The notes beneath the pieces are model-generated. The model was not told the origin of the DNA, did no database searches, and saw nothing but the letters and a program-made list of their open reading frames with translations. Shown in pieces: positions 11,289-33,935 of a stretch of DNA of 36,976 nucleotides. The stretch lies in contig PLLH01000061.1 in assembly GCA_003140895.1 (NCBI GenBank), forward strand, positions 1 through 36,976, read 5' to 3'. This stretch comes from Elusimicrobiota bacterium (lineage in GTDB: Bacteria; Elusimicrobiota; Elusimicrobia; F11). Position 1 is the stretch's first letter. Each line of letters starts with the position of its first letter. A program made the translations under genes and the position numbers.

Positions 11289-13163
11289 ATGTGCGGCATT
11301 TCTGGAATCCTCTCTCCGGCTTTAGCGGAAGCCCATCGAAACGACATCGTTCGCCAGATGATGAAGCTCCAACAACATCGCGGACCCGATGACAGCGGTA
11401 CTTATAGCGACGCTCAGATTTCGCTCGGCCACAACCGCCTTTCCATCCTTGATCTGGCGCACGGGAAACAGCCCATCTTCAACGAGTCTAAAAACGTGGT
11501 CGTCATTTACAACGGCGAAATGTACAACTACCGGGAGTTGAGGGCTGATCTCCTTCAAAAAGGCCACGTGTTTTCAACAAACACAGACACGGAAGTCATC
11601 GTCCACGCGTTTGAAGAGTGGGGGGAAGCCGCCTTCATTCGATTCAATGGGATGTTCGCCTTCGCGCTTTGGGACATCGCCAAACAGGAGCTTTATCTGG
11701 TTCGCGACCGGCTTGGAATTAAACCCCTCTACTATCTCACCGACGGGAAAAAGGTGTGTTTCTCCTCGGAAATAAAGGCGATGAACGCTCTCCCCGATTT
11801 CAATCTCGCCATCGATCCCGACGGGTTGGCAAGGTACCTGTGCTTCCAGAATCAGTTTGGAGCGAATACTCTTTACTCTCACGTGCAGAAGGTTGAACCC
11901 GCTTCTTATCACAAGGTAAACCGGGATCTCCTTTGCACGAAGAAGCAATATTTTCAGCTTCAATTTTCGATGGACTATTCAAAGTCTTTTTCGGATTGGA
12001 CGGAGGAGTTCTCTTCGGTCTTCAACGCTTCCGTTAAACGGCACATGATCGCGGACGTTCGCGTCGGCAGTTACTTGAGCGGAGGGTTCGATTCCTCCCT
12101 CGTGGCGTGGGGCGCTCAAAAAAACCTGGCGCCGGAACAGTTGTTCACATTTAATGGATATTTTGCCGAAGGCCCGGGCTATGACGAATCGCCTCTCGCC
12201 GAGGAAGTGGCGCGGTCCATAGGGTCAAACCATCACAAGGTGGTCATCACCTCGGATGATTTCCGAAACGAAATTGAAAAGATCGTTTATCACCTGGATG
12301 AACCCATGATGGGGCCCGGTTCCTTTTCGCAATACGTGGTGGCCCGGGAGATCGCCAAAGAAGTGAAGGTGGTGCTGACGGGGCATGGCGGGGATGAATT
12401 CATGGGGGGTTACCCTGTTTATAAAGCCGCTTTGTTAAAGGAGAATCCGTTCCGGTATAGAAAGGAAATATTCAACGGGTTGACCGTTCCGGATTTTATC
12501 CGGCTGGCGTATTTTTCCATTTTCCCGATGTTCCGGCCTCTATTGCGCTCTGGTTTGCATGTGTTGTTTACCCCACGCGACATCACGGCCCTCCTGGGTG
12601 ACGGAATCCTTCCCAACTCCTTAGAAAATAATCTGATGGCCGAAGCCATCCCCTTTATCCATTCGGATTTAAAGCCCTTTAATAAGACGTTGCATAATTA
12701 CATCAAGGGGTATCTCCCCGGCTTGTTTATCGTCGAAGATAAGATCAGCATGGCGCATTCGTTGGAATCCCGGACTCCCTTCTGCGACAACGAGATGCTC
12801 GCCCTTTCGACCAGAATTCCGGCGGACATGAAATTGCACGGGGGGCAACTCAAAGCCATTTCAAAGGCGTTCGCGAAAGACAAACTCCCCGCATCTTTGT
12901 ACAAACAACCCAAACGAGGATTCCCGACGCCGGTTCATTTGTGGTTTCAAGGACCTCTCAAGAAATGGATGGAGGACCGGATTCTCCAGAGCGGGAACTC
13001 TGTGTTCAACGCCAAAGCCGTAAAAAAGATATGGTCCACTTTTTTGAGCCTCCGGCATGACAATCTTTATACGTACAACTACGGCTGTAAACTGTTTTCA
13101 CTTCTTTGCGTTAACCTGCTGCTGACACAATCGGTAAACGGAAAGAAAATTCAAGTCAATTAA
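11289..13163 (+). CDS. asnB: AsnB-type glutamine-dependent amidotransferase, complete
   Basis: The 624-residue enzyme starts MCGISG, so the mature N-terminal cysteine nucleophile of the class II glutaminase domain is present. QHRGPDDSG, HNRLSI, YNGEMYNYRELR and FNGMFAFALWD follow. The synthetase domain has the ATP loop SGGFDSS at residues 264-270, LTGHGGDEFMGGY, and the C-terminal ISMAHSLESRTPFCD motif. The family makes amides from carboxylates with ATP and glutamine. In an O-antigen-type locus the substrate is more likely a uronic or nonulosonic acid than aspartate. No ribosome site is visible right before the ATG. The gene follows the GT2 by 14 bases, so coupled translation is possible. Confidence 0.88.
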   Translation: MCGISGILSPALAEAHRNDIVRQMMKLQQHRGPDDSGTYSDAQISLGHNRLSILDLAHGKQPIFNESKNVVVIYNGEMYNYRELRADLLQKGHVFSTNTDTEVIVHAFEEWGEAAFIRFNGMFAFALWDIAKQELYLVRDRLGIKPLYYLTDGKKVCFSSEIKAMNALPDFNLAIDPDGLARYLCFQNQFGANTLYSHVQKVEPASYHKVNRDLLCTKKQYFQLQFSMDYSKSFSDWTEEFSSVFNASVKRHMIADVRVGSYLSGGFDSSLVAWGAQKNLAPEQLFTFNGYFAEGPGYDESPLAEEVARSIGSNHHKVVITSDDFRNEIEKIVYHLDEPMMGPGSFSQYVVAREIAKEVKVVLTGHGGDEFMGGYPVYKAALLKENPFRYRKEIFNGLTVPDFIRLAYFSIFPMFRPLLRSGLHVLFTPRDITALLGDGILPNSLENNLMAEAIPFIHSDLKPFNKTLHNYIKGYLPGLFIVEDKISMAHSLESRTPFCDNEMLALSTRIPADMKLHGGQLKAISKAFAKDKLPASLYKQPKRGFPTPVHLWFQGPLKKWMEDRILQSGNSVFNAKAVKKIWSTFLSLRHDNLYTYNYGCKLFSLLCVNLLLTQSVNGKKIQVN

Positions 13164-14133: not shown

Positions 14134-15666
14134 ATGACTGAAGAAAGCCAACACAACGAACCGATCCACGAGGGAAACCAGTTTAAGAAAATTCTTAAAC
14201 ATGGGTTTTGGTATCTCTTTTCCAGCCTTTCCACCAAAGTCATTCAACTGCTCCTGTTGCCTGTCTATACGCGTTATTTAAGCCCGGCGGATTATGGAGT
14301 CCTTGGAAGTCTCACCTCTATCACGCAACTCCTCCCCGTTTTTATTTCACTTTATATGGATTCGAGCTTTGACCGTTATTACTTTCTTGAGAAATCCATT
14401 TCCAGAGAGAGAATAAGATCGCTCTACAGCACGCACTTTTGGTTTGTTGGGATATGGGGTCTGTTTGTGACGACGATATTTTTTGTTGTTGCGCCCAGAA
14501 CAGTCCAGCCGCTCTTGCATATTCCCTTCGCTCCCTATATCCCGCTTGTCGGATTGGCTGCGCTCTTTAATCAAGTGGCAAATTTCGGGCTGATCTATTT
14601 GAGGTCCAACTTAAAAGCCAAGAAGCTGAATATTGTGAATTTAATAGGTTTTTTGCTCAATTCATCCTTGACTCTTTTGTTGTTGGTTTCGTTTCGCTGG
14701 GGGATTGTGGCGAACCTCGTCGGAAATTTCGCATTGGCCACTTTTCTGTTGATCTATTATCTCATGATGGCAAAGGGGGAATCGCTGCTGGTTTTTAAAA
14801 TTGACTTCGCCATTGTTAAGCGATCTCTTATTTATTCCATTCCCCTGCTCCCCAATATTATCGGCGGTTGGATTGCCGGACTTTCGGATCGACTGATCAT
14901 GGCTTTTTACGGCAAGATTACCCAAGTCGGACTCTATTCCATCGCGGTTCAAATGGCCCTCTCTTTGTATTTGGTGAACGAAGCGGTAACCAACGTTCAA
15001 GGTCCCATCAGCATGTCGGCCATGACCGCGAACAAAGAAGCCGGAAAAGCTCAAATTTCCGAATTTATCTCCTATTATCTTCTGATTATTCTTTTCGCTT
15101 ATTTGGCCGTGACGATGTTTTCAAAGGAGATGTTCGTGCTCTTAACGGGCAGCGATTATCACCAGGCCTATTCTCTTGTGGGGATTATCGCCTTGAACCA
15201 TGTCTTTAGCGGCTTTTATCGGGTGTTTTCCAACGTGTTGGCGATGAATCAGAAGATGTGGATTATCTCTGTTGCCGCAATTTTGCAAGCTTTGTCCAAC
15301 TTAACGCTCAACCTGATCTTCATCCCTCATTTTGCTCAGTATGCCGCCGCCTGGGCGGGAGTCGGAGGGATGGCCATTTACACCGCCTGCATCATCATTG
15401 GATCTCAGATATACGACCCCGTGCCGATCAATAAGCCCGTTGTTTTCACGTTGATTTGTTGGGCGGGAGTCATAGTCGGTTTTTATCTCTGCCTGGACAT
15501 TTATTGGCATCTCAATGATTATCTGAATTTCGCATTAAAATTGGGGTTGTTGGCGGCTTATTTTATACCGCTTTTTGTGCTTTCCCAAATGAAGGACTCA
15601 CGGGATCATCTTCAATTGCTTTTTAGGAAATCCTTGGTTAAACTCGTCGGACTCTATGGTAAGTGA
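14134..15666 (+). CDS. wzx: Wzx-type oligosaccharide flippase (MOP/MATE superfamily)
   Basis: The 510-residue membrane protein has a short hydrophilic N terminus, then 12-14 hydrophobic helices. The opening [20 protein letters not shown], then [15 protein letters not shown], is the signature of the Polysacc_synt flippases. [21 protein letters not shown] in the middle marks the start of the second half. Wzx proteins move undecaprenyl-pyrophosphate-linked repeat units across the inner membrane. Together with the Wzy/WaaL-like gene at 35207 this points to a Wzx/Wzy-type assembly route rather than an ABC exporter, of which I see no gene in the window. The symbol is by function, since Wzx sequences diverge strongly. 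Confidence 0.88.
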
Positions 15667-15679
15667 GGTAAACACTCGT

Positions 15680-18090: not shown

Positions 18091-18659
18091 GCTTTTCCTC
18101 GCATCCCACGGCCATTATCGACAATGGAGCTTCCATTGGAGACAACACCCGCGTATGGCATTGGGTCCATGTCTGCGGGGGAGCCAAAATTGGGAACAAC
18201 TGCTCTTTGGGTCAAAATGTTTTCATCGGCAATAAAGCCGTTATCGGAAATAACGTCAAAATTCAGAACAACGTGTCAGTGTATGACGAAGTGATTCTGG
18301 ACGACGATGTTTTTTGCGGCCCCAGCATGGTGTTCACGAACGTCATAAATCCGCGAAGCCATATCGTTCGAAAAAATGAATACAAGCGGACACTGGTAAA
18401 AAAGGGCGCCACGATCGGCGCCAACGCCACGATTCTTTGCGGGACGGTGATCGGGAAGTTCGGTTTTGTCGGCGCCGGCGCCGTGGTCATCAAAGACGTG
18501 AGCGATTATTCTCTCGTGGTCGGTGTTCCCGCCAAACACGTCGGATGGATGTGCGCGTGCGGCAACCAAATTCAAAAAAAGAAAAATAATTCAGGAACCT
18601 GCCCCAGCTGTTCCAAAACATATCGGCTAACAGCCAAAACCTGCGTTCCAAAGGACTAA
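18087..18659 (+). CDS. wbpD: UDP-GlcNAc3NA 3-N-acetyltransferase (WbpD type, left-handed beta-helix)
   Basis: The 190-residue hexapeptide-repeat acetyltransferase shows the [LIV]GxxxxIG rhythm from about residue 8 to 150 ([46 protein letters not shown]). [20 protein letters not shown] follows. The last 40 residues carry CAC and CPSC, a small zinc-ribbon-like tail seen in WbpD-type enzymes. It acetylates the 3-amino group made by WbpE with acetyl-CoA. The length matches WbpD closely. It starts inside the wbpB stop codon and ends two bases before wbpE. Confidence 0.92.
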
Positions 18660-20904: not shown

Positions 20905-22151
20905 AACCGCTGTTGATCCTCTCATTTAAATTCCCGCCGATGGGGGGGGTGGGGACGAGGCGGTGGGCCAAATTTTCGAAATATTTGGCTCGAAAAGACT
21001 ACAAAGTCCATGTCGTCACCCTTCAATACCCCTTTCACGATGAAAATTCATGGGCGGCCGACGTTACGGACCCGCGGATTATTGTTCATCGCCTCCCTTG
21101 CCACGTTCCGCTTTGGATGATCAAGCGGGAAAACCGGATGTTTCTGGAAACGTGGGGTTCCATGATTTTTAAACGGATATTCCGGTCCTCCGCCATTGAT
21201 ATCGCCGACGGGTGGGAAAAATTCTGCGTTCCGTATGCCTTGAACCTGATTAAACAGGAGAACATTCGAAACGTTATCGTCACGGGGCCGCCCAGTTCGC
21301 TCCATTTTGCTGGGGCGCTCCTCAAAAAAGAGAATCCGGGAATCCATTTGATTCAGGATTACCGCGATCCCTGGAACACGGACAGGGATTACCAGCTTGG
21401 GCAGGGGCTCAAATCAACGATGGCTAAGGAACGGTCATTAAGAATGGAAAAAGAAGCTCTTCAGGCCGCGGATCGGGTGGTTGTGGTCACTCGCGACATG
21501 GAAAAACAATTAAAGGAACTGCATCCATCAATCACCGACCGCGTTTCGACGATCCACAACGGATTTGACCCGGATGAAACAATGCGAAATCACTCAAACC
21601 CCGCTCCGACATTCAGTCTTCTCTACTCCGGAATTTTGGGCACGGACCGGGCGCTCCGGCCCCGCGCGCTGGAACTCCTGGCCAACGCCATCGATTCGTT
21701 AAATGACGCCTTCATTCGGGAGAACCTGACAATTCACGTTACGAGCGACATCGACCTGGATTTTTTCAGTTTCAGCCCCATATTTGAGACGATCAAAAAG
21801 AATTTTCGCTTCCATCCCTTTATTAATCCGTCCAGAATTCCATCGCTCGTTCATGAGCATACGTATTGCCTGTCAATCAACGCGGAGGTGGATTCCCACG
21901 CCTTCGGGTCAAAAGTATTCGATTACATGGCCCAGGGGAAGAAAATCTTCCTTATCTCAAACGAGGGGGATTTGTCCGATGTACTCAAATCAAAGGGACT
22001 GTTCACGGCAACCTATGATCTGGAATCCGTGAAACAACAGCTGATTCGACTGAAAGAGGATTTTTTGGCGGGCGGCTACAAAACGCCGCTTGATTACTCT
22101 GAATTTGAACTGCCGCGTCTGGTTGAACGATTCGAGACGGTTTTAATTTAA
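20901..22151 (+). CDS. GT4-like glycosyltransferase
   Basis: The 416-residue protein has a GT-B layout. The N-terminal domain opens LLILSFKFPPMGGVGTRRW and continues with YKVHVVTL. A VTGPPSSLHFAG strand and LIQDYRDPW follow. The linker and C-terminal domain hold VSTIHNGFDPDE, LLYSGILG, and HAFGSKVFDYMAQGKKIFL, the position of the family E-x7-E region. Such proteins are retaining transferases that act on the cytoplasmic face of the membrane. The donor could be UDP-ManNAc3NAcA, because the gene is coupled to wbpI, but that is a guess. An eight-G run sits at 20942-20949 near the start of the frame. Confidence 0.8.
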   Translation: MKPLLILSFKFPPMGGVGTRRWAKFSKYLARKDYKVHVVTLQYPFHDENSWAADVTDPRIIVHRLPCHVPLWMIKRENRMFLETWGSMIFKRIFRSSAIDIADGWEKFCVPYALNLIKQENIRNVIVTGPPSSLHFAGALLKKENPGIHLIQDYRDPWNTDRDYQLGQGLKSTMAKERSLRMEKEALQAADRVVVVTRDMEKQLKELHPSITDRVSTIHNGFDPDETMRNHSNPAPTFSLLYSGILGTDRALRPRALELLANAIDSLNDAFIRENLTIHVTSDIDLDFFSFSPIFETIKKNFRFHPFINPSRIPSLVHEHTYCLSINAEVDSHAFGSKVFDYMAQGKKIFLISNEGDLSDVLKSKGLFTATYDLESVKQQLIRLKEDFLAGGYKTPLDYSEFELPRLVERFETVLI

Positions 22152-23335
22152 TGGAAACCATTCCCAAATTATTTCCTCGAGTTCCATATTTTCCTCCTGG
22201 TTGGGGCCGGGAAGAAGTCGCCACCGTCTGGCGTCATCTCCTTCATGGATTTTCAGACGACCCGGATGGTTTCGCTCATTTCAAAGAGCAGCTCGCTTCC
22301 GTTTTTCCGACAAAAAAAATGACTTTTTTTAATTCAGGAAAGGCGGCCATTTTTTCTCTCTTAAAACAGTGGAATGTCGGCCCCGGAGATGAGGTTATTA
22401 TCCCGGCTTTTATATGCGAGTCGGTTTATTTCCCCATTTTAATGTGCGGCGCCGTTCCCGTGGAAGCGGACGTGGATCCGGAAGACTTAAACATATCCAT
22501 CCCTTCGGTCATAAAGAAGATTTCCGCCAAGACGAAAGCGATTCTTGTGGCTCATCTTTACGGGAATCCGGCAAACATCGTTCCGTTGTTAGAGGTCGGA
22601 AAAAATAGAGGAATCAAAATTCTTGATGACGCCGCCCCTTCCTTTGGGGCCAGTTTGAACGGACAGCCAGTTGGGAGTTTTGGGAATGGAGGCGCCATCA
22701 GCATTGGGCCTGGGAAATCGACCTCCGGCGTTCGTGGGGCCATTTGCTTATCAAATGATCAGATTCCCGGATCGACTGAGAGAGAATCGGGAATCCGTTT
22801 GCTTCAGATATACCTCAAATTTCTTTTGACGAGACAATATCGAAAAGCGGCATATCCCTTAGTGCGATTACATCATTGGTGGGCCGGGTTAAATAAGAGA
22901 AAAGATGGGATCGAAATGGATACTCGCTTCACTATATCGCAAATGGCCGCCATTGACGCCGCCATCGGCTCACTTCAAGTTAATTCTGTTTTAGCCGGCG
23001 GCATAAAAAAAAGGCGGGCGAACTTTGACATTCTCGACGGAATTCTGCTGAAGGAAAGTAAAATTAAAGTCGTTCGGGCAAAGCGGGGGGAATCAGCCTA
23101 TGCCAAATATGTTTTTATCCTTCCTGAGGGAAATCCTCTGAAGTTATTTTCTTTTCTCCAGACCAAAGGTATTGAGGTTTTTACCACGTATTCTCCAAAA
23201 CCACGATTTGGAAGGAATGACCCCTATTTTGCGGACTCCTTGGCCGGCCGTGTTTTTGAATTTCCTCTCAATGAAACGCCGGACAACACGGCTTTTATCG
23301 GAGAATCAATCAAAGAAGGTCTAAACAGAATTTAA
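22151..23335 (+). CDS. DegT/DnrJ/EryC1-family PLP aminotransferase, divergent
   Basis: The 394-residue protein has the fold signature of sugar aminotransferases. NSGKAAIFSLLKQWNVGPGDEVIIPAFIC is followed by KILDDAAPSFGA, with Asp160 for the pyridine ring, and SIGPGKSTSG with a probable PLP lysine at 189. The cofactor residues are therefore kept. The rest departs from PseC and WbpE: the opening is VPYFPPGWGREE and the middle (residues 210-255) is rich in basic and aromatic residues. The sugar substrate cannot be read. The gene starts in a TAATG overlap with the GT4 and is followed by the FemAB-like gene after three bases, so it may supply an amine to be acylated. Confidence 0.82.
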   Translation: METIPKLFPRVPYFPPGWGREEVATVWRHLLHGFSDDPDGFAHFKEQLASVFPTKKMTFFNSGKAAIFSLLKQWNVGPGDEVIIPAFICESVYFPILMCGAVPVEADVDPEDLNISIPSVIKKISAKTKAILVAHLYGNPANIVPLLEVGKNRGIKILDDAAPSFGASLNGQPVGSFGNGGAISIGPGKSTSGVRGAICLSNDQIPGSTERESGIRLLQIYLKFLLTRQYRKAAYPLVRLHHWWAGLNKRKDGIEMDTRFTISQMAAIDAAIGSLQVNSVLAGGIKKRRANFDILDGILLKESKIKVVRAKRGESAYAKYVFILPEGNPLKLFSFLQTKGIEVFTTYSPKPRFGRNDPYFADSLAGRVFEFPLNETPDNTAFIGESIKEGLNRI

Positions 23336-23338
23336 ATT

Positions 23339-24388
23339 ATGGAATACCAACTCATCAGCCATATCGATTCCATCCCTTCGAAACTCTGGGAGACGCTGGG
23401 TCGAGAAGGAACGGTTTTTCATCAGAGGGAATTCATCGAATCCCAGTGCGCGACCTCTCCGGAGGCGGTTCAATTTTTCCTTGCCAAAGATGGAGATGAC
23501 GTCGTGGCGTTCCTGCCACTACTTGTGCGTCGTGTCCTTTTCTTTCGATACGCTGTGTTATTCGTTGAACCCTGGATTCAGGAAGGGGCGTCCCTAAAAC
23601 TCGCTGAGGTCTTGTGCAATTTCTTTTTAGAAGACAAAGGCTTTATGTGGATCGATGCGAACTCAACCATGGCGCGGTTTGGAAACGTGGAAGGATCTCA
23701 TGTCCGACGGGCTCCCTTTGGCTCATATGTGATAGATCTAACGCGGCCCGAAGATGAAATCTGGTCCAAAATCCATTCAAAGCACAAAAATTCCATCCGT
23801 TCGGCGGAAAAAAACAATGTTGTCGTTGAGATAATCCAAAAAATTGACGATATCTACCCCGTGCTGGACATAACGCACAAAATGGCCGGACTGCCCCTGC
23901 CTTCGTTATCCGAATTCCGGGGTTTATGGGAAGAGCTTCTTCAAAAAAACAAATGTCGACTCTATGCGGCCAAAAGCCATGGCGTCGTTCAAGGGGCGGT
24001 TCTGATCCCGTTCACCAAGCAACGCGCCTATTACTACTATGGTGGATCCATCGAAAACCATGTTCCTGGATCAATGAATTTGCTGCATTGGGAAGTTGTT
24101 AAAGATTTAAAAAAAACCGGCGTGTTAAAATATGACTTTGGGGGCGCCCGCGTGAACCCGGATAGAGAATCCAAAGCCTACGGTATTCAGCGTTTTAAAG
24201 AGAGATTCGGAGGGGAATTTGAAACGTGTTTCATCTGGGAAAAGATCAATAATTTATTGCTTTTTAAATTGTTCAAATGGGCAAAGCGTATTTCATTTCT
24301 TTGCCGGAACAAAACTTATCATGCCTCCTTGGTGGAACAGGAAATCTCGAGAGGGGCCATTCTCATGATAAAAGGTGAAACCCCATGA
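23339..24388 (+). CDS. FemAB-like acyl/aminoacyltransferase (double GNAT fold)
   Basis: The 349-residue protein matches the FemAB/FmhB family. The N-terminal part has TVFHQREFIES. The core carries IWSKIHSKHKNSIRSAEKNN near residue 140, YYYYGGSIENHVPGSMNLLHW, and KYDFGGARVNPDRESKAYGI, then QRFKERFGG, near residues 263-294. Well-studied members add amino acids from aminoacyl-tRNA to peptidoglycan precursors. Homologues in Gram-negative polysaccharide loci are mostly uncharacterised. It is not PseH, which is a single-GNAT protein of about 170-180 residues. The stop overlaps the next start (ATGA). An acyl or aminoacyl transfer to an amino sugar is my inference from its neighbours. Confidence 0.82.
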   Translation: MEYQLISHIDSIPSKLWETLGREGTVFHQREFIESQCATSPEAVQFFLAKDGDDVVAFLPLLVRRVLFFRYAVLFVEPWIQEGASLKLAEVLCNFFLEDKGFMWIDANSTMARFGNVEGSHVRRAPFGSYVIDLTRPEDEIWSKIHSKHKNSIRSAEKNNVVVEIIQKIDDIYPVLDITHKMAGLPLPSLSEFRGLWEELLQKNKCRLYAAKSHGVVQGAVLIPFTKQRAYYYYGGSIENHVPGSMNLLHWEVVKDLKKTGVLKYDFGGARVNPDRESKAYGIQRFKERFGGEFETCFIWEKINNLLLFKLFKWAKRISFLCRNKTYHASLVEQEISRGAILMIKGETP

Positions 24389-25734
24389 AGTTATCAGATC
24401 CTCAAAAAACGGTTCTCTTCTCCGAATGGAGAACCGAGGGTCGCGAGCTGGACATGTTATTGCCCGTGATCTATTTTCTCGAACGCAGAGAAATTGCTTG
24501 TTCCTACACTCCAATATTGGATTTGTGGGAGGTGCTCCGGAACGTTCCTGATCTAGCTATTCTTTCTGGCGGAATCGGATGTATTGAGAGTTTTCAATTT
24601 TCGAAACTCTGCCATCGCTCCGGTATTGATCTCTTTACGATGATCACGGAAGGATCTTTTTCTCCGTCTCAGGCCGATAGCATGCTTTGGGGATGGAATA
24701 AGGATCGGATTCTATACGAGAACAGTACCTTTATGTGGTCGGAAAATTCCTACGATATTGTGAAGGAAATTTATGAGGGACCTAAGGGGAAGATTAAAGT
24801 CAGCGGGTCTCCAGGACACGATAAGTACAAGATTTATAAACCGCTGATGAGGCTGGATAGAATGAATTTTAAGAAAGTTATTGGAATTGGAGGGAATGCC
24901 TTTGAATATCTTAAGGCTCATTCAAAAGAGATTATTCGGGTAACGAGTCAGCAGTATTATGATATTTGTGCAAGTTATGAAAAAATCTCAAATTCGATCA
25001 TGAAAAAGTTGGTGAAACAAAATCCCGATATTCTTTTCATCATCAAATCGCATCCCGCCGACAACCTGATGGTTCCGCTTGAAGTCGCCGGCTTTGAGAA
25101 TGAACATAACCTCCGCATTGTTCACGACGATTTCCCTATTTTTGAATTGATCGCCAATTCTGATTTTTGGCTTAGCTTTGCTTCGTCGACAACTCTGGAA
25201 GCGTGGCTTATGGGAAAGCCATGCCTTTCCTTTGGCACCCGCAAAGAGATTTTGGAGCATACGTATGTCAGCACCGGAGGACTTCTATCGGAGGATGCAG
25301 ATCAGATTCAATGTTACATCGATGAATACTTCAGCACCGGCAAGATTGTTGATTTCGAGAACAAGGCAGATATACGTCGTCGTCTGGCGCATGATTTGAT
25401 CGGGTTCGACGACGGGCTCAACCACGTCCGCTTTCTTTCCTTTTTGAGGCCTCTCATTGAAGGGGCACCCGGACAAAAAGGTCGATGGGACCTTGGTTGG
25501 ATTGAGAAAGCCAAGCTCTATGTAAAACACTTGCGCGCATTGGCGGCGAAACGGAAAAAGACATGGCCTTTATTGAGACAGCATGCCAAGATCTATGAAA
25601 TGTTTAACCTCGATAAACTAAACGAGATAAAGAAATGTCGGTACCCCCAGCTCGATGCTTTTTACGCAGAGCATTCGGACCGAATCGAACACCTTTATCG
25701 GTCCTATGCCGATGAGTGGAACAGGAGTCATTGA
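24385..25734 (+). CDS. GT-B-like surface carbohydrate biosynthesis protein
   Basis: The 449-residue protein resembles the group annotated as surface carbohydrate biosynthesis proteins, distant relatives of capsule and CDP-glycerol-type transferases. The start, VLFSEWRTEGRELDMLLPVI, is typical. The second half has IIKSHPADN and FWLSFASSTTLEAWLMGKPCLSFG, which correspond to the donor-binding side of a GT-B fold. The reaction is unknown; transfer of a sugar or phospho-polyol is possible. Base composition looks more AT-rich than in the wbp block. It overlaps the FemAB-like gene by four bases and ends two bases before the asnB start, so it belongs to the same coupled block. Confidence 0.7.
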   Translation: MKLSDPQKTVLFSEWRTEGRELDMLLPVIYFLERREIACSYTPILDLWEVLRNVPDLAILSGGIGCIESFQFSKLCHRSGIDLFTMITEGSFSPSQADSMLWGWNKDRILYENSTFMWSENSYDIVKEIYEGPKGKIKVSGSPGHDKYKIYKPLMRLDRMNFKKVIGIGGNAFEYLKAHSKEIIRVTSQQYYDICASYEKISNSIMKKLVKQNPDILFIIKSHPADNLMVPLEVAGFENEHNLRIVHDDFPIFELIANSDFWLSFASSTTLEAWLMGKPCLSFGTRKEILEHTYVSTGGLLSEDADQIQCYIDEYFSTGKIVDFENKADIRRRLAHDLIGFDDGLNHVRFLSFLRPLIEGAPGQKGRWDLGWIEKAKLYVKHLRALAAKRKKTWPLLRQHAKIYEMFNLDKLNEIKKCRYPQLDAFYAEHSDRIEHLYRSYADEWNRSH

Positions 25735-25736
25735 GA

Positions 25737-27635
25737 ATGTGTTCCATATGCGGATATTTTTCCAGAACAAAGCCGATCGCTGTCGCTGAATTTGAACATG
25801 CGAACCGGCTGCTGTCCCACCGCGGGCCCGATCATGCGGGAACGGCTTCTTTCGATTTGAATGGACTGCGCTCACCTTCTCACGCGACGTCCACCCACGC
25901 CTGGATCGGACATAACCGGTTGAGTATCGTCGATTTATCCGATCAAGCGAATCAGCCATTTCATTCAAAATGCGGGCGATATGTCATGGTTTTTAACGGC
26001 GAGATTTATAATTTTCTTGAGCTTAAAAGTGAATTGTCCGGCTTGGGGTTTGAATTCACGACGACCAGCGATTCTGAGGTCCTTTTAAACGCCTATCTCG
26101 CCTGGGGCAAGCGGTGCGTGGAACGTTTCAATGGAATGTGGGCCTTTGCCATCGTCGACTCCGTTAAAGGAACGATTTTCGCTTCGCGAGATCGATTCGG
26201 CAAAAAACCGTTTTTCTATCACTTCGATTCGCCTTCCCACACCTTCATCTTTGCATCGGAAATGAAATTTATCCGCCGCTTCGTTTCGACCACCCAAAAC
26301 GAAAGAAGCGTCCGGAAATACCTCTTATATGGGGAAAATCAAAACACGCCTGAGTCCTTTTATCAGGAAATCAAGATTCTTGGTCCGGGACATGTCCTCG
26401 AATACGGGCTTAAAGACAATCAATTGTCCGTTGAACGCTTCTGGGATCTTCGTCCCAAAGCCGTCGATCACTCTTTGGAATCCATTGAATCTTTATTGCA
26501 TGATTCCGTCCGACTTCGTTTGAGAAACGATATCCCGGTGCTCGGCGCCTCTTTGAGCGGGGGAATGGATTCGAGCATGATTGTCTCCTTGCTGGATGAA
26601 ACCATTCGCCAGGACCGCATTCCAAAACGTCTTCACACGTTTACCGCCTACTTCCCCGGTCTCGAAAACCGAGAATTGGATTACGCCAAAGAAGTCATGA
26701 ACAGGATCGATGGAGACCATCATCTCATCACCCCCAAATATGACGACATGATCCGCGAATTCGAGATGATGATGGAACACCAGGAGCAGCCCGTGCTGAG
26801 CATTGCGATCTTCGTTCATTGGCTGATCATGAAGGAAGTGTCGAAACACAACATCCGGGTCTACTTTTCGGGACACGGAGGGGATGAATTGTTCGGGGGG
26901 TACTACGAGCATTTCATTAATCTAATAATTGACGATCTTGTTCGTTGCAATCCGGCCTTTGTTAAACGGCTGGCGCAATTCAACCGCATCCGTCCGGGAT
27001 TTAATCGGATTATTCGGTCGCTCCTTCGAACACTGATTTCCAATTCCCGACTCGTTGACGGGTTGAAAGCAACGGCAGGCGCATTGGGCGTTAAAAGCCA
27101 TTCATTTCGGCCTTTCTTTAATTTTATCGAAGAGAAAACGAAATATCCCAACCCGTTTCCCGGGGAATGGCTCAAGTACAAGGTTTATACCGAAATCAAG
27201 TCCCATCCGCTGCACGAATGGCTTCAATATGAAGATCGGAACGCGATGGCGTTTGCCATTGAGTCTCGGGTGCCGTTTCTTGACTATCGTCTCGTGGAAG
27301 CAACTGTCAATCTATCCAATGATTTTAAATTCGGAGATGATCGGTTCAAATATCTACTTCGTCGGTTGGGTGAAGGCCGCCTGCCTCAAAGCCTGTTGAA
27401 TAGAACGGATAAATACGGATTTACGAGTCACGATTTTTACAACAACAATCAATTCCGCTCTTTCGTCATGGATCATGTCATGTCTTCTGAACTCCGATCG
27501 ACCGGATTGGTTAATCGGAAGCGGCTCGAACATTTTCTAAAGGAACGCGACAGAATCGACGATCCGTTCGTCTGGCGCATTTTTAATTTGGCGTTTTGGC
27601 TCCGAATGCAACCTCCCAAAGGAAACGCGGGATGA
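25737..27635 (+). CDS. asnB: AsnB-type glutamine-dependent amidotransferase, complete
   Basis: The 632-residue enzyme starts MCSICGYF, which places the catalytic cysteine at position 2. An in-frame start at 25716 would bury it, so 25737 is the better choice. LLSHRGPDHAG, HNRLSIVDL, FNGEIYNF and FNGMWAFAIVD complete the glutaminase domain. The synthetase domain has SGGMDSS at 274-280, SGHGGDELFGGYY, and YEDRNAMAFAIESRVPFLD. It is clearly different from the AsnB at 11289. Similar proteins in O-antigen loci amidate uronic acids. It is coupled to the CapA-family gene by an ATGA overlap, and that gene is coupled to the degenerate AsnB homologue. Confidence 0.88.
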   Translation: MCSICGYFSRTKPIAVAEFEHANRLLSHRGPDHAGTASFDLNGLRSPSHATSTHAWIGHNRLSIVDLSDQANQPFHSKCGRYVMVFNGEIYNFLELKSELSGLGFEFTTTSDSEVLLNAYLAWGKRCVERFNGMWAFAIVDSVKGTIFASRDRFGKKPFFYHFDSPSHTFIFASEMKFIRRFVSTTQNERSVRKYLLYGENQNTPESFYQEIKILGPGHVLEYGLKDNQLSVERFWDLRPKAVDHSLESIESLLHDSVRLRLRNDIPVLGASLSGGMDSSMIVSLLDETIRQDRIPKRLHTFTAYFPGLENRELDYAKEVMNRIDGDHHLITPKYDDMIREFEMMMEHQEQPVLSIAIFVHWLIMKEVSKHNIRVYFSGHGGDELFGGYYEHFINLIIDDLVRCNPAFVKRLAQFNRIRPGFNRIIRSLLRTLISNSRLVDGLKATAGALGVKSHSFRPFFNFIEEKTKYPNPFPGEWLKYKVYTEIKSHPLHEWLQYEDRNAMAFAIESRVPFLDYRLVEATVNLSNDFKFGDDRFKYLLRRLGEGRLPQSLLNRTDKYGFTSHDFYNNNQFRSFVMDHVMSSELRSTGLVNRKRLEHFLKERDRIDDPFVWRIFNLAFWLRMQPPKGNAG

Positions 27636-28771
27636 GCGGTTTAGCGCCCAAATTGGTCAGTTCTCAGGGAAATGAAATTGTGTTTACCGGAGATTTTGCC
27701 CCAACCGAAACCGGTTTTTGGTTTTCCAACGAATTAAACACATTTCTTCATGCCGCTGGCACCGTGTGCCTTAATTTTGAGGGAGCCGTCACGCGTCAAC
27801 CCATTCGATCCGATAAGACAGGAGCCGCCCTGAATTTATCAACGGATCTCCTTCCAACTTTTTCTGAGGCTCTACTTCTGGCCGGATTGAACAACAATCA
27901 CACAATGGATTTTGGCTCGGAGGGGCTATCTGAGACGATGGAGTTCTTCCGGCTGAATAATATTTCCTGTTTTGGAGCTGGGAAAGATCGGCGTGAAGCC
28001 CTCCAGCCGCTTATCGTAAATCTGGGGTCAAAACGAGTAGGCGTCATAGGGTTCTGTATGCCGGATCTCGAGCTCGTTTTCGCCAATGAGCAGGGCGCCG
28101 GCGTTGTGGCTCCGTTCGGTCAATGGAATTACGTCAAGAAATTGAAGCAGATGGTTGATCATCTTATTGTGACATGTCATGGCGGAATCGAATTCATCGA
28201 TCAACCGGCGCCCTCCATCGTTCGACTCTTTAGAAAGTTTATTGAGTCCGGAGCGGATGCGGTGATCGGGCACCACCCCCATGTCCCGCAGGGATGGGAA
28301 TCATATCGCGGCGGACGGATTTTCTACAGCCTTGGGAATTTTGTCTTTAATCACCCTTATCACAGTAAATTCCGTAACACCGATATGGGATATTTGGTTC
28401 GGTGCCGGTTCGGGATGGGCATCGATTATGACGTCATTCCCGTGAAACGGGCAGGAACAACGATCGAGGCAAGACCGGATCTCGCCGCTCAACTCCCGGG
28501 TTTACGCCTTCATGAGGGGGGAATTGACCATAGCGAATGGCGCAAACAATGCTTTGAATGGTTGTTTCCATCATGGAGTCCGACAAGTTCGATCTCCATC
28601 GGCGAGGGACAAACGGATAAGCAGCCTCCGGCTGGCAATAAAATTCGCCGTCTGGGTAAGTCGATCGTTCGAAAGATGCGCCATATTTTTCTCTTATTAT
28701 CCCTGCCCGTCTATAGGGATATTGTTATCGGAGCGGCCCTCTACGGTTGGAAGAGGTTATGGAAAAACTAA
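27632..28771 (+). CDS. capA: CapA/PgsA-family metallophosphatase-like capsule protein
   Basis: The 379-residue protein carries the CapA (calcineurin-like) motifs in order: TGDF at 19-22, NFEGA at 48, NNNH at 87-90, CHGGIEF from 182, HHPH at 214-217 and YSLGNFVF after it. The founding members take part in poly-gamma-glutamate capsule export or anchoring, and their biochemical role is still debated. This one has no N-terminal signal or membrane anchor. A hydrophobic stretch near the C terminus (IFLLLSLPVY) could touch the membrane. The ATG at 27632 overlaps the asnB stop (ATGA) and has AAAGGA upstream; a TTG further upstream is less likely. Confidence 0.85.
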   Translation: MSGLAPKLVSSQGNEIVFTGDFAPTETGFWFSNELNTFLHAAGTVCLNFEGAVTRQPIRSDKTGAALNLSTDLLPTFSEALLLAGLNNNHTMDFGSEGLSETMEFFRLNNISCFGAGKDRREALQPLIVNLGSKRVGVIGFCMPDLELVFANEQGAGVVAPFGQWNYVKKLKQMVDHLIVTCHGGIEFIDQPAPSIVRLFRKFIESGADAVIGHHPHVPQGWESYRGGRIFYSLGNFVFNHPYHSKFRNTDMGYLVRCRFGMGIDYDVIPVKRAGTTIEARPDLAAQLPGLRLHEGGIDHSEWRKQCFEWLFPSWSPTSSISIGEGQTDKQPPAGNKIRRLGKSIVRKMRHIFLLLSLPVYRDIVIGAALYGWKRLWKN

Positions 28772-30411
28772 CGATACGCTCGGAAACTCTATCGATCCGA
28801 CTGGTGGATCAAGCCGGCCGTTGGAAGCTTCTGGAAAATAAGAAGTCAGGCCTTCTTTTTAGCGGATACTTCTGGTTTGGAGATCAATTGTATGACGGAG
28901 ACTCCGCCCTCCATTTTCTCTCGAATCATGCATTCTGCATTATGGAAGAACCCGCGCTGGATCAGATATTTAAAAAAATGAACGGATCTTGGGCTTTGAT
29001 CGCATGGAATGGCCCTGATGTCCTCATCGCCGCCGATTTGATTCGATCAATTCCTGTATTTTATACGGTGAAAAATGGCGCTGCGGCGATTTCGGATTCA
29101 AGCCATCATCTTGTTGAACAAATGAATCTTACGAGCCACTCACCTGAAAATATCAGCTTCTATCTTCGCGCCCTCACCTGTTTCTCCGGAGAAACCATCG
29201 TTAAAAACCTCCATGATGTGGCGGCCGGCGAATATGTTCGAATTTTCAATCTACAGGCTGTTCGGCGTCGATATTGGCACATGCCACCGAAATCAGAACA
29301 ACTTCAAACGACAAAAGACCCGGTGGCACTCGTTGCGGACATGTTTGACGTCGTTTTTCGACGTATGGCTCAATATCTGGACCGAGTGAAGATGCCCATA
29401 TTTCTTCCGCTCAGCGGGGGAATGGACTCAAGACTTCTCGCGTGGGCGATACGAAAATACAAAATCGAAAACAAGGTGATCGCTTTCACGTACGGCCGAG
29501 ATGAAACGGTGGAAGAAGCCGTTCTCAGTCGGCGGGTAGCGGAGACACTGGGGATGCAATGGGAGTTTGTGAAATATGAGCCGCATGATTGGAAAACGTT
29601 ACGAGATGATTTTCCGAAAATCATCAAATCGCTTAATCCCGAAAAAGCACCTCCTCATTTTCAAGATTATTTTGCCGTTTGTCGCCTCGTCGAACAGTAC
29701 GGTGTTGGCCTGGTTTTGCCCGGGTTATGCCTTGATGGTTTGACCGGACTGACAATTCCCAAGGGCTTGGCTTTCAGCGGGCCGGCCCGGTTCACGCAAT
29801 TTTTTGATTATGGTTCCTTATTCAAGACGGAAATGGAAAGGAGGGCAACTTCTTCCAACCAGCTGGAGAATTTTGAATTATTCAACATCACGCATAAGTG
29901 GAGTTCTTATGTTGTGAATAGTGTGCGAACATACGAATTGCTTGGATGTCCGTATTACTTGCCCTACTGGGATTCGGAGTTAACTGACCTTTGGCTGTCT
30001 TTGCCCACCGCTCTCCGGTATGATCGCGTCTTATTTCGGCGATACTTGAATCGAGTCGCTTATGTCGGTCCCTATGCGCCATTGCTGCAAATCCCCATCG
30101 CTCTCGGTCGAAGGATGGATGAATTTTCTCAGCCGATCAGTGTCTTGGAAAAAACGCAGCTCAGCGCAAAATATTTGATCAAGCGGCTTCTGGGCGATCG
30201 CAAGGTATTTCCACAATCACTTCAAGAAAAAGTGTCGAAAAATCGGCGGGACGACTACGTGGGTTTTTATGACTTTTTTGCGGAGGCTTCACTTCAAGAA
30301 ATTAAGGAAATTCGAAGCTATTTCGGATTAAATCCCAACAAACCCCTCCATTCATATTCTTATAATGATTTATTCACTTTATATGCACTCAACGCTTTAC
30401 TATCAAAATGA
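28759..30411 (+). CDS. Degenerate AsnB homologue lacking the glutaminase cysteine
   Basis: The 550-residue protein aligns by eye with class B asparagine synthetases but begins MEKLTIRS, so the Cys2 nucleophile is missing. A worn remnant of the glutaminase fold remains (MNGSWALIAWNGPDVLIAAD, where relatives have FNGMFAFALWD). The ATP loop is intact, SGGMDSR at 219-225. The usual GHGGDELFGGY is replaced by PGLCLDGLTG, with Asp326 as the only clear acidic survivor. It cannot use glutamine by the standard route. Beta-lactam synthetase is a known relative that lost the cysteine and makes amide bonds from an amine on the substrate. The start overlaps capA by 13 bases; a TTG at 28747 is an alternative. 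Confidence 0.8.
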   Translation: MEKLTIRSETLSIRLVDQAGRWKLLENKKSGLLFSGYFWFGDQLYDGDSALHFLSNHAFCIMEEPALDQIFKKMNGSWALIAWNGPDVLIAADLIRSIPVFYTVKNGAAAISDSSHHLVEQMNLTSHSPENISFYLRALTCFSGETIVKNLHDVAAGEYVRIFNLQAVRRRYWHMPPKSEQLQTTKDPVALVADMFDVVFRRMAQYLDRVKMPIFLPLSGGMDSRLLAWAIRKYKIENKVIAFTYGRDETVEEAVLSRRVAETLGMQWEFVKYEPHDWKTLRDDFPKIIKSLNPEKAPPHFQDYFAVCRLVEQYGVGLVLPGLCLDGLTGLTIPKGLAFSGPARFTQFFDYGSLFKTEMERRATSSNQLENFELFNITHKWSSYVVNSVRTYELLGCPYYLPYWDSELTDLWLSLPTALRYDRVLFRRYLNRVAYVGPYAPLLQIPIALGRRMDEFSQPISVLEKTQLSAKYLIKRLLGDRKVFPQSLQEKVSKNRRDDYVGFYDFFAEASLQEIKEIRSYFGLNPNKPLHSYSYNDLFTLYALNALLSK

Positions 30412-31166
30412 ATATGAGTAAGGAAAAAATAAAATTAGTCGCGATTGTTCAAGCCCGGATGACGTCGGAGCGGCTTCCGGGGAAAGTGTTAATGACTGTC
30501 CTTGAAAAACCTCTATTGGAATATCAGATCGAACGGCTCAAGCGGGTCAAGCTGATTAATGAGCTCGTTATCGCGACCACGGAAAACAAAACCGATGATC
30601 CGATCGTGGGTCTTTGCTCCCGGCTTTCGATCTCGTTCTTCCGAGGGTCCGAACATGACGTTTTATCAAGGTATTACGACGCGGCTGTCCAATACGGAGC
30701 CGACGTGGTGACCCGCATCACGTCAGATTGCCCGCTCATTGATCCGGCTGTCATCGATCAATCCATTCAATTTTTTCTTGACCACCGGCATCAATTGGAT
30801 TACGTCTCAAATGTCGGGCCGGGCTATTACCCGCGAGGCATGGACTGCGAAGTGTTCTCGTTTCGCGCTCTCAAAGAAGCGTTTCAGGAGGCAACGGAGG
30901 CGTACGACCGCGAACATGTGACTCCCTTCATCGCTCACCGTCCGCAGCGTTTTAAATCAGGTGGAGTTCCGCACCCCATTGATCTAAGCCATCATCGATG
31001 GACCGTAGATACGCCGGATGATTTTGAGCTGATTAGACGTATTCTGACTTCTCTCTATCCTTCCAAGCCGGAGTTTACATTGGCTGATATCATCCAATTA
31101 CTTGAACAGCATCCTGATTGGCAAAATGTCAACGCTCACGTTAAGCAGAAGGCAAACCCATCATGA
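30408..31166 (+). CDS. SpsF-type cytidylyltransferase family protein (likely CMP-nonulosonate step)
   Basis: The 252-residue nucleotidyltransferase has VAIVQARMTSERLPGKVL at its N terminus, EYQIERLKR, FFRGSEHDVLSRYYDAA, and RITSDCPLIDPAVID. This is the SpsF branch of the cytidylyltransferases, not the NeuA branch, which reads PARGGSKR at the same place. In Bacillus sps loci spsF lies beside a NeuB-like and a PseG-like gene. Here it is coupled to pseG by ATGA. I infer that it activates the nonulosonic acid with CTP in place of PseF. The first ATG (30408) overlaps the upstream stop; a second ATG two codons later is possible. Confidence 0.8.
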   Translation: MNMSKEKIKLVAIVQARMTSERLPGKVLMTVLEKPLLEYQIERLKRVKLINELVIATTENKTDDPIVGLCSRLSISFFRGSEHDVLSRYYDAAVQYGADVVTRITSDCPLIDPAVIDQSIQFFLDHRHQLDYVSNVGPGYYPRGMDCEVFSFRALKEAFQEATEAYDREHVTPFIAHRPQRFKSGGVPHPIDLSHHRWTVDTPDDFELIRRILTSLYPSKPEFTLADIIQLLEQHPDWQNVNAHVKQKANPS

Positions 31167-32209
31167 CCTCCAAAACGATCCTATTCCGTGTCGATGCCGA
31201 CAGTGAAATCGGCGCGGGGCATCTCATGCGATGTCTGGCGTTGGCGCAAGCTTGGAAATCGCGCGGTGCTTCCGTCGTATTCGCCATGGCCAGATCAGCG
31301 CCCCTGTTGAAGAACCGCTTAGTCGAAAACGGAATCGAGGTTGTTCCCTTGTCGGTGGAACCAGGGACGACCGGTGACGCGGAGAAGACAGTCTTGTCAG
31401 CGCGGAATATTAACGCCGTTTGGATCGTGGTGGATGGGTATGTTTTTGATGCGGCATTCCAGCGGATTCTCAAGGAAAACAATCAACGGGTTTTGTTTAT
31501 CGACGACTACGGCCATGCGGCGCATTATTCCGCCGATATTATTTTGAATCAGAATTTGACGGCGGACGAGAAACTGTATAAGAATCGAGAAGCGTTCACG
31601 CGCCTTCTTTTGGGAGCACGATACGCGTTATTGAGATCGGAATTCAATTCATATCGGGGATGGAAACGCCGAATTGAGACGGACGTTAAGAAAATCCTGG
31701 TCACAATCGGCGACGGAGACAAGCCCAACGCCACATTGTCGGTTATTCGAGCTGTTCAATCGCTCAGCGACAACGGAATCGAATTGACGGTCGTTGCAGG
31801 GGGGAGCAATCCGCATTTTGATGAATTAAAAAACGTATGCGGGCATTCGCCGCTCTCCATTCGACTGGAGAGAAATGTCCCGAACATGCCTTCTCTCATG
31901 GCCTGGGCCGATATGGCCGTCTGCGGGGCCGGAAGCACGAGCTGGGAAACGGCGTTCATGGGGCTTCCCAATCTAGTCTTGGTCATGGCGGATAATCAGG
32001 CGCCCTTGTCTCACGTGCTTGAAGAAAAACAAATCGCAGTAAATTTGGGCTGGTTTCATCGATTAACGCCTCAGGGTATCGCAACGTCATTGCGGTCATT
32101 GATGAAGGACAAGGAAAGGCGCGTGAAAATGTCGGAAGCGGGTCCTGCTCTTGTCGACGGGAAAGGCGCGGAGCGAATCATCGACGAGCAAATAAGGATG
32201 TCAAAATGA
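31163..32209 (+). CDS. pseG: PseG-type UDP-sugar hydrolase (UDP-2,4-diacetamido-2,4,6-trideoxy-L-altropyranose hydrolase)
   Basis: The 348-residue GT-B-like hydrolase begins with FRVDADSEIGAGHLMRCLAL, where His20 corresponds to the catalytic histidine of PseG. VVDGYVFDAAFQ, LFIDDYGH and LLLGARYALLR follow. The second domain has ILVTIGDGDKPN and ADMAVCGAGSTSWETAFMGL, then PNLVLVMADNQ. It removes UDP to release 6-deoxy-AltdiNAc for the PseI condensation. The SpsG branch is closely related, so the exact substrate rests on PseB and PseC elsewhere in the locus. Start and stop both sit in ATGA overlaps. Confidence 0.85.
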   Translation: MTSKTILFRVDADSEIGAGHLMRCLALAQAWKSRGASVVFAMARSAPLLKNRLVENGIEVVPLSVEPGTTGDAEKTVLSARNINAVWIVVDGYVFDAAFQRILKENNQRVLFIDDYGHAAHYSADIILNQNLTADEKLYKNREAFTRLLLGARYALLRSEFNSYRGWKRRIETDVKKILVTIGDGDKPNATLSVIRAVQSLSDNGIELTVVAGGSNPHFDELKNVCGHSPLSIRLERNVPNMPSLMAWADMAVCGAGSTSWETAFMGLPNLVLVMADNQAPLSHVLEEKQIAVNLGWFHRLTPQGIATSLRSLMKDKERRVKMSEAGPALVDGKGAERIIDEQIRMSK

Positions 32210-32895
32210 AGTGTGCCATCATGCAGCCTCACTATATGCCCTGGTCGGGCTATTTCAATTTAATCGCGTCCGTTGATAAGTTTGTTTTCTATGACGATGT
32301 CCAATTTGAAAAACAGAGCTGGCAAAATCGCAATCGCATTCTTTTAAATCACCAGTCCTTTTTTATAACCGTTCCCTCTCATCGTGAACATTTGGAGCAA
32401 CCCATTCATTTGATCCGGATCGAGGACGGAAGCAATTGGAGAGAAAAACAAATCCGGCTTCTTCAGCAAACATACGCGAAACACCCGTTTTCCTCTGACA
32501 TGTTGGAGATCGCCAAGATCGTTTTGGATAAATCAAACACCCTGCTGGCGGATCTTGACATCAAAATCATTGAAGCTGTGTGTTCCAAATTGGGACTCTC
32601 AAAAACCTTTGTTCGTTCTTCTTCTCTGAATATTTTAGGTGACAGGTCCGACCGCCTGATCAATATTTGCAAAGCTCTGGATTGCGATGAATACCTTAGC
32701 CCGCCCGGCTCACGTGACTATATCGAAGAAGACGGGAAATTCCGCGACAACCCCATTAAGTTGAGGTTTCAAAATTTTGAACCGCAACCATATGTTCAAA
32801 AAAATGAACAAGCCTTCGTAAGCCATTTGTCGTTTCTAGACGTGGTCGCCAACCTGGGTTGGGCAAAAACACTGGATTACATTACTCCGCGATGA
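32206..32895 (+). CDS. wbqC: WbqC-family protein
   Basis: The 229-residue protein has the WbqC signature MQPHYMPWSGYFNLIASVDK, then FVFYDDVQFEKQSWQNRNRI, and ends YVQKNEQAFVSHLSFLDVV followed by NLGW. The family is widespread in O-antigen and capsule loci and its function is not firmly known. A role in modifying an amino sugar or lipid-linked intermediate is often supposed. It is soluble by sequence. It overlaps pseG upstream and the deacetylase gene downstream, each by ATGA, so it may act on the nonulosonate branch. Confidence 0.82.
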   Translation: MKCAIMQPHYMPWSGYFNLIASVDKFVFYDDVQFEKQSWQNRNRILLNHQSFFITVPSHREHLEQPIHLIRIEDGSNWREKQIRLLQQTYAKHPFSSDMLEIAKIVLDKSNTLLADLDIKIIEAVCSKLGLSKTFVRSSSLNILGDRSDRLINICKALDCDEYLSPPGSRDYIEEDGKFRDNPIKLRFQNFEPQPYVQKNEQAFVSHLSFLDVVANLGWAKTLDYITPR

Positions 32896-33935
32896 AACCA
32901 TCTCTTTCTGTGACCTTGGATTATGAGCTTTTTCTAGGCGTCAAATCCGGAACCCCGGAAAATTGCCTTAATACTCCCACCATTCATCTCCTCAATCTCT
33001 TCCGCGACTACGGGGTTCGGGCGACTGTTTTCTTCGATATTCTTTATTATTGGCGTGTTCTGAACGGGGTCTCATCAAATCCGGCGCTAAGAGCAGATTT
33101 GGACATTATTAAAACCAACGTCGCGTCATTCTTAAAAAATGGACACGAGCTTGAACTCCACCTTCATCCGCACTGGCTTGACGCGACCTACGCGGAGGGG
33201 GAATGGACATTTCCGCATTACAAACGCTTCCGGCTCCATTCGTTAAAAACGGACAACAACCCATCTGATATCAACACGATTTGCGGATGCATCACCATGG
33301 GGAAACGTCTGCTGGAAGACCTTTGTTCTGAAACGACGCCCCATTACAAGGTTAATGCTTTCCGCGCGGGGGGATGGTCTCTGGAGCCCATGAAACAATT
33401 GGCTCCGTATCTCAAGGAAAACGGATTAACCATCGATTCCTCCGTGGCTCCGGGCCTTGTGGTTCAGAACGCCATTCATGATGTCAATTTTGAGTCCTGT
33501 CCGGATAAAGACGGCTGGCGGTTTGAGGACGACGCTAGAGTCCCGACGGAAAATGGTTCTTTTAAAGAGATCCCTATATCAACGTTTAAGAACGATTTGA
33601 TAACGAAATGCCGTTCTTTTTGGGAAAAGTATACCGTCGAACCCAACGTGAAAAAGATCTATGGCGATGGAACTGCCATCCCGTTCCCACGGAGCCGTTT
33701 CTTTCAGAAGATGGCTCCCTCGGTCAAAATACTGACGTTCGAGAATTTAACCTTCTTTGAGATGATGCGAGGGTTTGATTCTCTTGTTTCGCGCGGTCAC
33801 CGGCGACTCGTGATGGCCGGTCATCCCAAATACGTATCTCCCTTTGCTATATCGGAAACGGAGAGGTTCTTCAGCGTGCTTCGATCGAGAGGCGTTCGAT
33901 TTACTCCGTTGACCGAGACGGCTTCAACTCTCTAA
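32892..33935 (+). CDS. Polysaccharide deacetylase (NodB-homology) family protein
   Basis: The 347-residue protein begins SVTLDYELFLG, with Asp10 in the place of the catalytic aspartate of NodB-type deacetylases. ATVFFDILYYW and the metal-site stretch HELELHLHPHW follow, with His90, His92 and His94. NAFRAGGWSLEPM matches the later arginine motif. No signal peptide is present, so action on a cytoplasmic intermediate is more likely than on the finished polymer. Removal of an N- or O-acetyl group is the expected reaction. The ATG at 32892 overlaps the wbqC stop. A TTG start upstream at 32859 would only extend the protein into the wbqC frame. Confidence 0.78.
   Translation: MKPSLSVTLDYELFLGVKSGTPENCLNTPTIHLLNLFRDYGVRATVFFDILYYWRVLNGVSSNPALRADLDIIKTNVASFLKNGHELELHLHPHWLDATYAEGEWTFPHYKRFRLHSLKTDNNPSDINTICGCITMGKRLLEDLCSETTPHYKVNAFRAGGWSLEPMKQLAPYLKENGLTIDSSVAPGLVVQNAIHDVNFESCPDKDGWRFEDDARVPTENGSFKEIPISTFKNDLITKCRSFWEKYTVEPNVKKIYGDGTAIPFPRSRFFQKMAPSVKILTFENLTFFEMMRGFDSLVSRGHRRLVMAGHPKYVSPFAISETERFFSVLRSRGVRFTPLTETASTL

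Follow-up and report, generated by a model that had tools for sequence, protein, structure and literature searches.

What is made by six consecutive genes of amine and amide chemistry at positions 22151-30411 of an Elusimicrobiota contig, and do these genes form a unit of their own? The window, the whole stretch of DNA that was analysed (36,976 nucleotides), is the entire contig (C95) of a genome of 2.53 Mb that is 99.8% complete. The initial annotation had described the six genes as a tightly coupled block, proposed to attach amino acids or amide groups to an acidic glycan. An amide or aminoacyl tailoring role of the block on acidic sugars was judged likely. On the best reading, the genes would belong to the known Wbp/Vim kind of pathway, extended by a pair formed by CapA and an AsnB-type protein that lacks Cys2 (Cys-less AsnB); this pair has comparative support and its chemistry is putative. 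The families named for the six genes were confirmed by Pfam and NCBIfam matches together with motifs, and the genes lie in the following order:

22151..23335, + strand, DegT/DnrJ/EryC1 aminotransferase of an atypical subtype, pyridoxal phosphate lysine kept (SIGPGKSTSGVRGA); PF01041 134 bits and motif
23339..24388, + strand, FemAB/GNAT acyl- or aminoacyl-transferase, VimA-like; PF02388/PF13480 over cut-off
24385..25734, + strand, BFO_1060-family glycosyltransferase; NF046086 280 bits, cut-off 200
25737..27635, + strand, AsnB2, intact glutamine-dependent amidotransferase (Cys2 present, MCSICG; SGGMDSS); TIGR01536 386 bits, cut-off 267
27632..28771, + strand, CapA (PGA_cap); PF09587 148 bits, cut-off 27, metal motifs kept
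28759..30411, + strand, Cys-less AsnB (AsnBdeg), amide-ligase-like, PP-loop SGGMDSR; PF00733 29.9 bits, no Cys2

Likely ATG starts were taken for AsnB2 (25737), CapA (27632) and the Cys-less AsnB (28759). With these starts, the junctions of the block measured -1, +3, -4, +2, -4, -13 and -4 bases, and the overlaps of 4-13 bases and gaps of 2-3 bases first described within it were reproduced. The tight coupling was therefore real but nothing special, as 18/18 junctions between the Wzx-type flippase (14134) and the Wzy-like protein (36865) ranged from -13 to +29 bases. Given that spacing is tight throughout this run, which also passes through WbpA/B/D/E/I and pseudaminic-acid-type genes, the boundary drawn around the six genes is an arbitrary cut and does not delimit a separate unit. 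The six genes are a stretch of one large bacterial surface-glycan operon-like run, at the two ends of which are found:

14134..15666, + strand, Wzx-type flippase; PF13440
35207..36865, + strand, Wzy/O-antigen ligase-like membrane protein; PF04932 22 bits, below the cut-off of 31.7

CapA neighbourhoods were compared across the best 80 GTDB relatives and 43 loci of the window's phylum with a usable match, and an amide ligase was scored where a TupA or RimK ATP-grasp, or an AsnB, lay within 4 kb of CapA. Such a ligase was found in 19/28 glycan-context loci vs 8/95 other CapA loci (Fisher p 8e-10), although the latter set includes some glycan loci missed by the classifier. TupA/RimK ATP-grasps occurred in 0/31 CapA-less loci retrieved from the surroundings of glycan, FemAB or AsnB genes (Fisher p 8e-8); both models were built from CapA-adjacent genes, so that this control covers only those ATP-grasp subfamilies. 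A Pfam check recovered seven TupA-like and two RimK-like ATP-grasps near CapA, with one more weak ATP-grasp match below cut-off. Soluble CapA proteins of ~380 amino acids stood beside, or at most two genes from, a TupA-like ATP-grasp in L122, L125, L137, L145, L156, L163 and L200, and glycan loci of this type spanned Bacillota, Bacteroidota and the window's phylum. The pairing in the window is similar, with CapA beside an amide ligase among glycosyltransferases, and differs in that the ligase is AsnB-type and no ATP-grasp. TupA is otherwise known from teichuronopeptide. In 47 loci of the phylum no AsnB or FemAB was found near CapA, and two glycan loci among these carry a TupA ATP-grasp.

The AsnB-based arrangement was also seen elsewhere, and just one other genome was counted as having part of the combination. 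A Sedimenticola locus (L134) carries AsnB, a Cys-less AsnB and CapA as a triad with overlaps of 4 and 14 bases, and in L174 CapA is followed by a Cys-less AsnB that is 42% identical to that of L134. Plasmid matches to the Cys-less AsnB or CapA (Haladaptatus, Natronorubrum, Halomontanus, Natrononativus, Vitreoscilla) were set aside, as no CapA-ligase neighbourhood was present in their annotation.

A patchwork glycan locus built by gene transfer, in which the six genes are chance neighbours without a common pathway, would account for several negative results. No counterpart of the block was found in two same-family genomes or elsewhere among the 295 phylum genomes searched, which gives no support to a block gained and lost as a unit, and FemAB, the Cys-less AsnB and a deacetylase-like gene of the window (32892-33935) were all absent from the same-family genomes. 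The Cys-less AsnB had no close relatives by a GTDB peptide scan, none in phages and only one weak match in the sampled phylum. CapAs linked to a Cys-less AsnB formed no clade in the CapA tree, which also speaks against inheritance of the triad as a unit and suggests that the partnership was assembled repeatedly. Chance is nevertheless considered improbable in view of the CapA-ligase counts, the Sedimenticola triad, a FemAB-DegT pair in Spirosoma, and a same-phylum locus (L244) in which a NeuB synthase, a methyltransferase similar to that next to PseI in the window, FemAB and a Cys-less AsnB occur together.

The last gene of the block had been called a degenerate AsnB, which is misleading. Its PP-loop (SGGMDS) is intact, and both the Cys-less state and the SGGxDSR motif are shared by relatives from other phyla; it is therefore a recurring type and no decayed copy. 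It scored 62 bits against the glutamine-dependent model TIGR01536 (cut-off 267) and lacks Cys2, and its predicted model (predicted local distance difference test, pLDDT, of 64, a low confidence) most resembled asparagine and beta-lactam synthetases, which lends low-confidence support to a two-domain AsnB fold. In a collection of 59 AsnB-type proteins, which come from related genomes and give non-independent counts, an Arg directly after SGGxDS (or the alternative DGR form) was present in 12/20 Cys-less vs 0/39 Cys-bearing proteins (Fisher p 1e-7). The SGGxDSR motif offers a simple first sign by which Cys-less AsnB ligases can be told from true amidotransferases. A CapA-free analogue of the block was observed in a same-class locus (L285:8678-17296), which encodes a Cys-less AsnB (SAGYDSR), a calcineurin-like phosphoesterase, an ATP-grasp, a WbqC and a deacetylase.

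CapA had been assigned to the poly-gamma-glutamate (PGA) capsule system. Its association with amide ligases held across phyla, whereas the link to PGA as such did not: no CapB Mur-type ligase or CapC was found among window genes scanned with Pfam (gene 10315-11274 outside the scan). Like PgsBCA/CapBCA, the window places a CapA/PgsA family protein alongside an ATP-dependent amide ligase; the differences are that hydropathy shows no N-terminal signal in its CapA, and that this CapA lies inside a Wzx/Wzy glycan operon. In B. subtilis, the D/L ratio of PGA is 5/95 without pgsA and 75/25 with it, so that PgsA raises D-glutamate content (PMC6029982). The only CapA relative with a solved structure that was found is MslH, a metal-dependent lasso peptide epimerase with a calcineurin-like metallophosphoesterase fold and one metal, dyads His88/Asp91 and His295/Asp11, and ligands Glu44, Asn87, His259 and His261 (PMC10406935, PDB 8gq9).

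A profile of the CapA alignment (A1) matched MslH at 7e-28. The window CapA keeps both MslH-type dyads, D21/H217 and H90/D93 (H90/D93 and H217 placed by HMMER alignment, D21 by motif outside the aligned stretch), and has metal ligands E50, N89 and H183 at MslH-aligned places. The MslH cluster includes MslC, an AsnB-type macrocyclase. Dissimilarities to MslH are its peptide substrate, one differing calcium ligand and the score of the window CapA against the MslH family NF038314 (59 bits, cut-off 700). A lasso-peptide-like reading, raised by NCBIfam matches, was rejected on scores far below cut-offs and the glycan operon context. On the strength of the conserved MslH residues and the effect of pgsA on D/L, CapA is a candidate for epimerising amide-linked amino acids, and by this analogy an epimerase role in the block is tentatively proposed, with doubt slightly outweighing confidence. 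As an alternative without epimerase activity, CapA might hydrolyse amide-ligase products, as a phosphatase or de-acylase, to proofread or remove them. This would suit the metallophosphoesterase fold of MslH and L285, where a calcineurin-like phosphoesterase stands in CapA's place near the Cys-less AsnB, ATP-grasp and WbqC. Given that MslH itself is an epimerase and that the product D/L ratio shifts on PgsA loss, the hydrolase is regarded as fairly unlikely.

For much of the block, the Wbp/Vim pathway is an experimentally supported counterpart. The route proposed for P. gingivalis and T. forsythia has the Wbp sugar deacetylated by VimE (CE4-type) and loaded with Ser/Gly by VimA, a FemAB-like protein for which TIGR03019 is likewise a match; in P. 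gingivalis, conversion of the sugar to a uronamide is assigned to WbpS, an AsnB homologue (PMC7468200). The window shares the Wbp genes and AsnB, and has in addition a FemAB-type transferase that may be VimA-like (TIGR03019 54.6 bits, below the cut-off of 260) and a putative CE4-type deacetylase-like gene. Upstream of the block the Wbp set is complete, with WbpA, B, D and E in that order and WbpI in addition; it is listed here with AsnB1 and with the deacetylase-like gene, which lies downstream of the block:

11289..13163, + strand, AsnB1, a second intact AsnB; TIGR03108 (WbpS family) 422 bits, below the cut-off of 817
15656-17002, + strand, WbpA; Pfam/NCBIfam family
17014-18090, + strand, WbpB; Pfam/NCBIfam family, no dedicated equivalog over cut-off
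18087-18659, + strand, WbpD; Pfam/NCBIfam family, no dedicated equivalog over cut-off
18662-19774, + strand, WbpE; Pfam/NCBIfam family, no dedicated equivalog over cut-off
19804-20904, + strand, WbpI; Pfam/NCBIfam family
32892..33935, + strand, putative CE4/NodB-like deacetylase, VimE-like candidate; DxE, HxxxH and RAGG conserved in alignment A5

By analogy with the known pathway, the Wbp set would produce a UDP-ManNAc3NAcA-type diacetamido uronic acid. AsnB1 scored 422 bits against TIGR03108 vs 292 for AsnB2 (cut-off 817); AsnB1 is nearer to the WbpS family and the uronamide step may therefore belong to it. A C-terminal piece of a further AsnB at 8-574, immediately 5' of a heparinase II/III-like gene (587-2623), is truncated by the contig start and reflects the assembly edge, not a pseudogene.

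Since FemAB, AsnB and Wbp fit the Wbp/Vim pathway, that part is of a known kind, and the earlier statement that no described system has this combination applies only to CapA with the Cys-less AsnB, which are absent from the pathway as described. No paper was found in the literature on the CapA family with an asparagine synthase in a capsule context. The window further differs by its interleaved Pse-type genes, and no exosortase (PF09721) was found in the genome. The locus might be an ordinary variant of this pathway, in which an aminoacylated uronamide linking sugar is the joint product of FemAB, AsnB and the deacetylase-like gene, with CapA and the Cys-less AsnB present either as neighbours that have no part in it or as regulators. 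Such a variant would draw on a pathway already known, with a complete Wbp set, a FemAB that matches TIGR03019 if weakly, and two intact AsnBs and a CE4-like gene within the run. It is considered unlikely, since overlaps of 4-13 bases tie CapA and the Cys-less AsnB to the adjacent genes, since the two also occur together in other loci, and since no exosortase was found.

The second acidic sugar made around the block would be of the nonulosonic type, and the relevant genes, listed together with the adjoining WbqC gene, are:

3498-4637, - strand, NeuB/PseI synthase; PseI/NeuB models below cut-off
6229-7410, + strand, PseC; TIGR03588/TIGR03589 pair (PseC, PseB) over cut-offs
7432-8436, + strand, PseB; the same pair over cut-offs
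30408..31166, + strand, PseF-type cytidylyltransferase (CTP_transf_3); PF02348, PseF model 30 bits, below cut-off
31163..32209, + strand, PseG UDP-sugar hydrolase; TIGR03590 231 bits, cut-off 153.6
32206..32895, + strand, WbqC family protein; PF08889 228 bits

The full pseudaminic set (PseB, C, H, G, I, F) is thus incomplete, as PseB, PseC and PseG were over cut-off, PseI and PseF below, and no PseH above cut-off was found genome-wide (best 25 bits, cut-off 93). Another N-acyltransferase may therefore be needed, and the missing PseH hints at some other N-acylation route for the nonulosonic acid precursor. The T. forsythia O-glycan cluster (Wzx, pseBCFHGI, asnB, wecB/C; PMC6120980) is alike in its nonulosonic acid, ManNAc-type uronic acid, AsnB and Wzx; the window differs by lacking PseH and by adding FemAB, CapA, the Cys-less AsnB, WbqC and the Wbp 3-amino branch. 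Only two other BFO_1060 members were over cut-off in the 295 phylum genomes, both adjoining PseI/PseG, and the glycosyltransferase of the block is likely a nonulosonic-acid transferase. This adjacency and the content of L244 favour a nonulosonic acid as the target sugar, which is given close to even likelihood; the Wbp uronic acid, considered possible with less confidence, is favoured by the completeness of the Wbp set and by the Wbp/Vim pathway as a precedent. The WbqC-family protein (32206-32895) may represent an extra N-acyl transfer step; the literature yielded nothing of use on WbqC in connection with glycine. A methyltransferase gene (4643-5362) lies near the NeuB/PseI synthase and has a counterpart in the same phylum (L244:10529-11221).

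The proposal that amino acids or amides are placed on an acidic glycan was partly supported, since it fits the Wbp set, the nonulosonic genes, WbqC, the deacetylase-like gene and the Wbp/Vim precedent. From the observed gene content, motifs, family matches and recurring CapA-ligase link, the individual reactions, their order and the target sugar may be proposed as follows. DegT would place an amine on a sugar, and FemAB would move an amino acid or acyl group to an amine in a VimA-like manner. AsnB2, like WbpS, would use Gln-derived ammonia to convert a carboxylate to a carboxamide, and the Cys-less AsnB would activate a carboxylate as acyl-AMP for coupling with an amine that is not ammonia from Gln (compare beta-lactam synthetase and lasso cyclases). 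CapA, a metal-dependent protein of calcineurin fold, would epimerise the amide-linked amino acid (compare MslH and possibly PgsA in PGA), and the BFO_1060 glycosyltransferase would transfer the finished nonulosonic acid. In this full scheme, which is favoured by a little over its negation, the block would be the acylation/amidation part of a long operon for a surface glycan, with both a Wbp-type diacetamido uronic acid and a nonulosonic acid in the repeat.

Several points weigh against the scheme, in addition to the lack of a clade in the CapA tree. The MslH calcium ligand His261 is without a His counterpart in the window CapA (HGGIE), and the deacetylase assignment of 32892-33935 was made from motifs only. 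The kinship of AsnB2 and the Cys-less AsnB with the Sedimenticola genes was read from a rapidly built tree whose branches are long and whose support values of 89 and 82 are unstarred. FemAB and AsnB-like genes are also frequent in glycan loci, so that some co-occurrence is expected.

CapA is widely annotated as a PGA synthesis protein in genomes without a known polymer of this kind. Should CapA prove to be an epimerase that is coupled to amide ligases in glycan loci, such annotations become a testable prediction of surface sugars bearing D-amino acids. A broader generalization is offered as a doubtful extension: CapA proteins in glycan loci would be a general class of metal-dependent epimerases which act with ATP-grasp or Cys-less AsnB ligases to place D-amino acids on sugars, the AsnB-based form in the window would be a rare one, and the presence of CapA would point to D-aminoacyl glycans across phyla.

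The FemAB protein matched Lipid II glycyltransferase 6snr and the aminoacyl-tRNA-dependent peptide synthase 9wqw in the PDB. Among those of its plasmid matches that were inspected, the ones of Methylobacterium and Parabacteroides lay outside glycan loci and that of Rhodovastum inside one. On a plasmid of Spirosoma oryzicola (L212:9635-11829), a FemAB that is 33% identical overlaps an atypical DegT, the pairing seen in the window, and the pair adjoins an N-acetyl sugar amidotransferase.

The deacetylase-like protein had zero Pfam, NCBIfam or PDB matches, and its model (pLDDT 48) gave a non-significant fold search; a relative of the gene in L211 had a weak match to PF01522. Members of this putative deacetylase family were found directly 3' of an AAC(3)-like N-acyltransferase at L211:9147-10996, L238:1769-3753 and L239:9145-11171 (Pfam check for one). 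These form a putative deacetylate-then-reacylate pairing that is without a family name.

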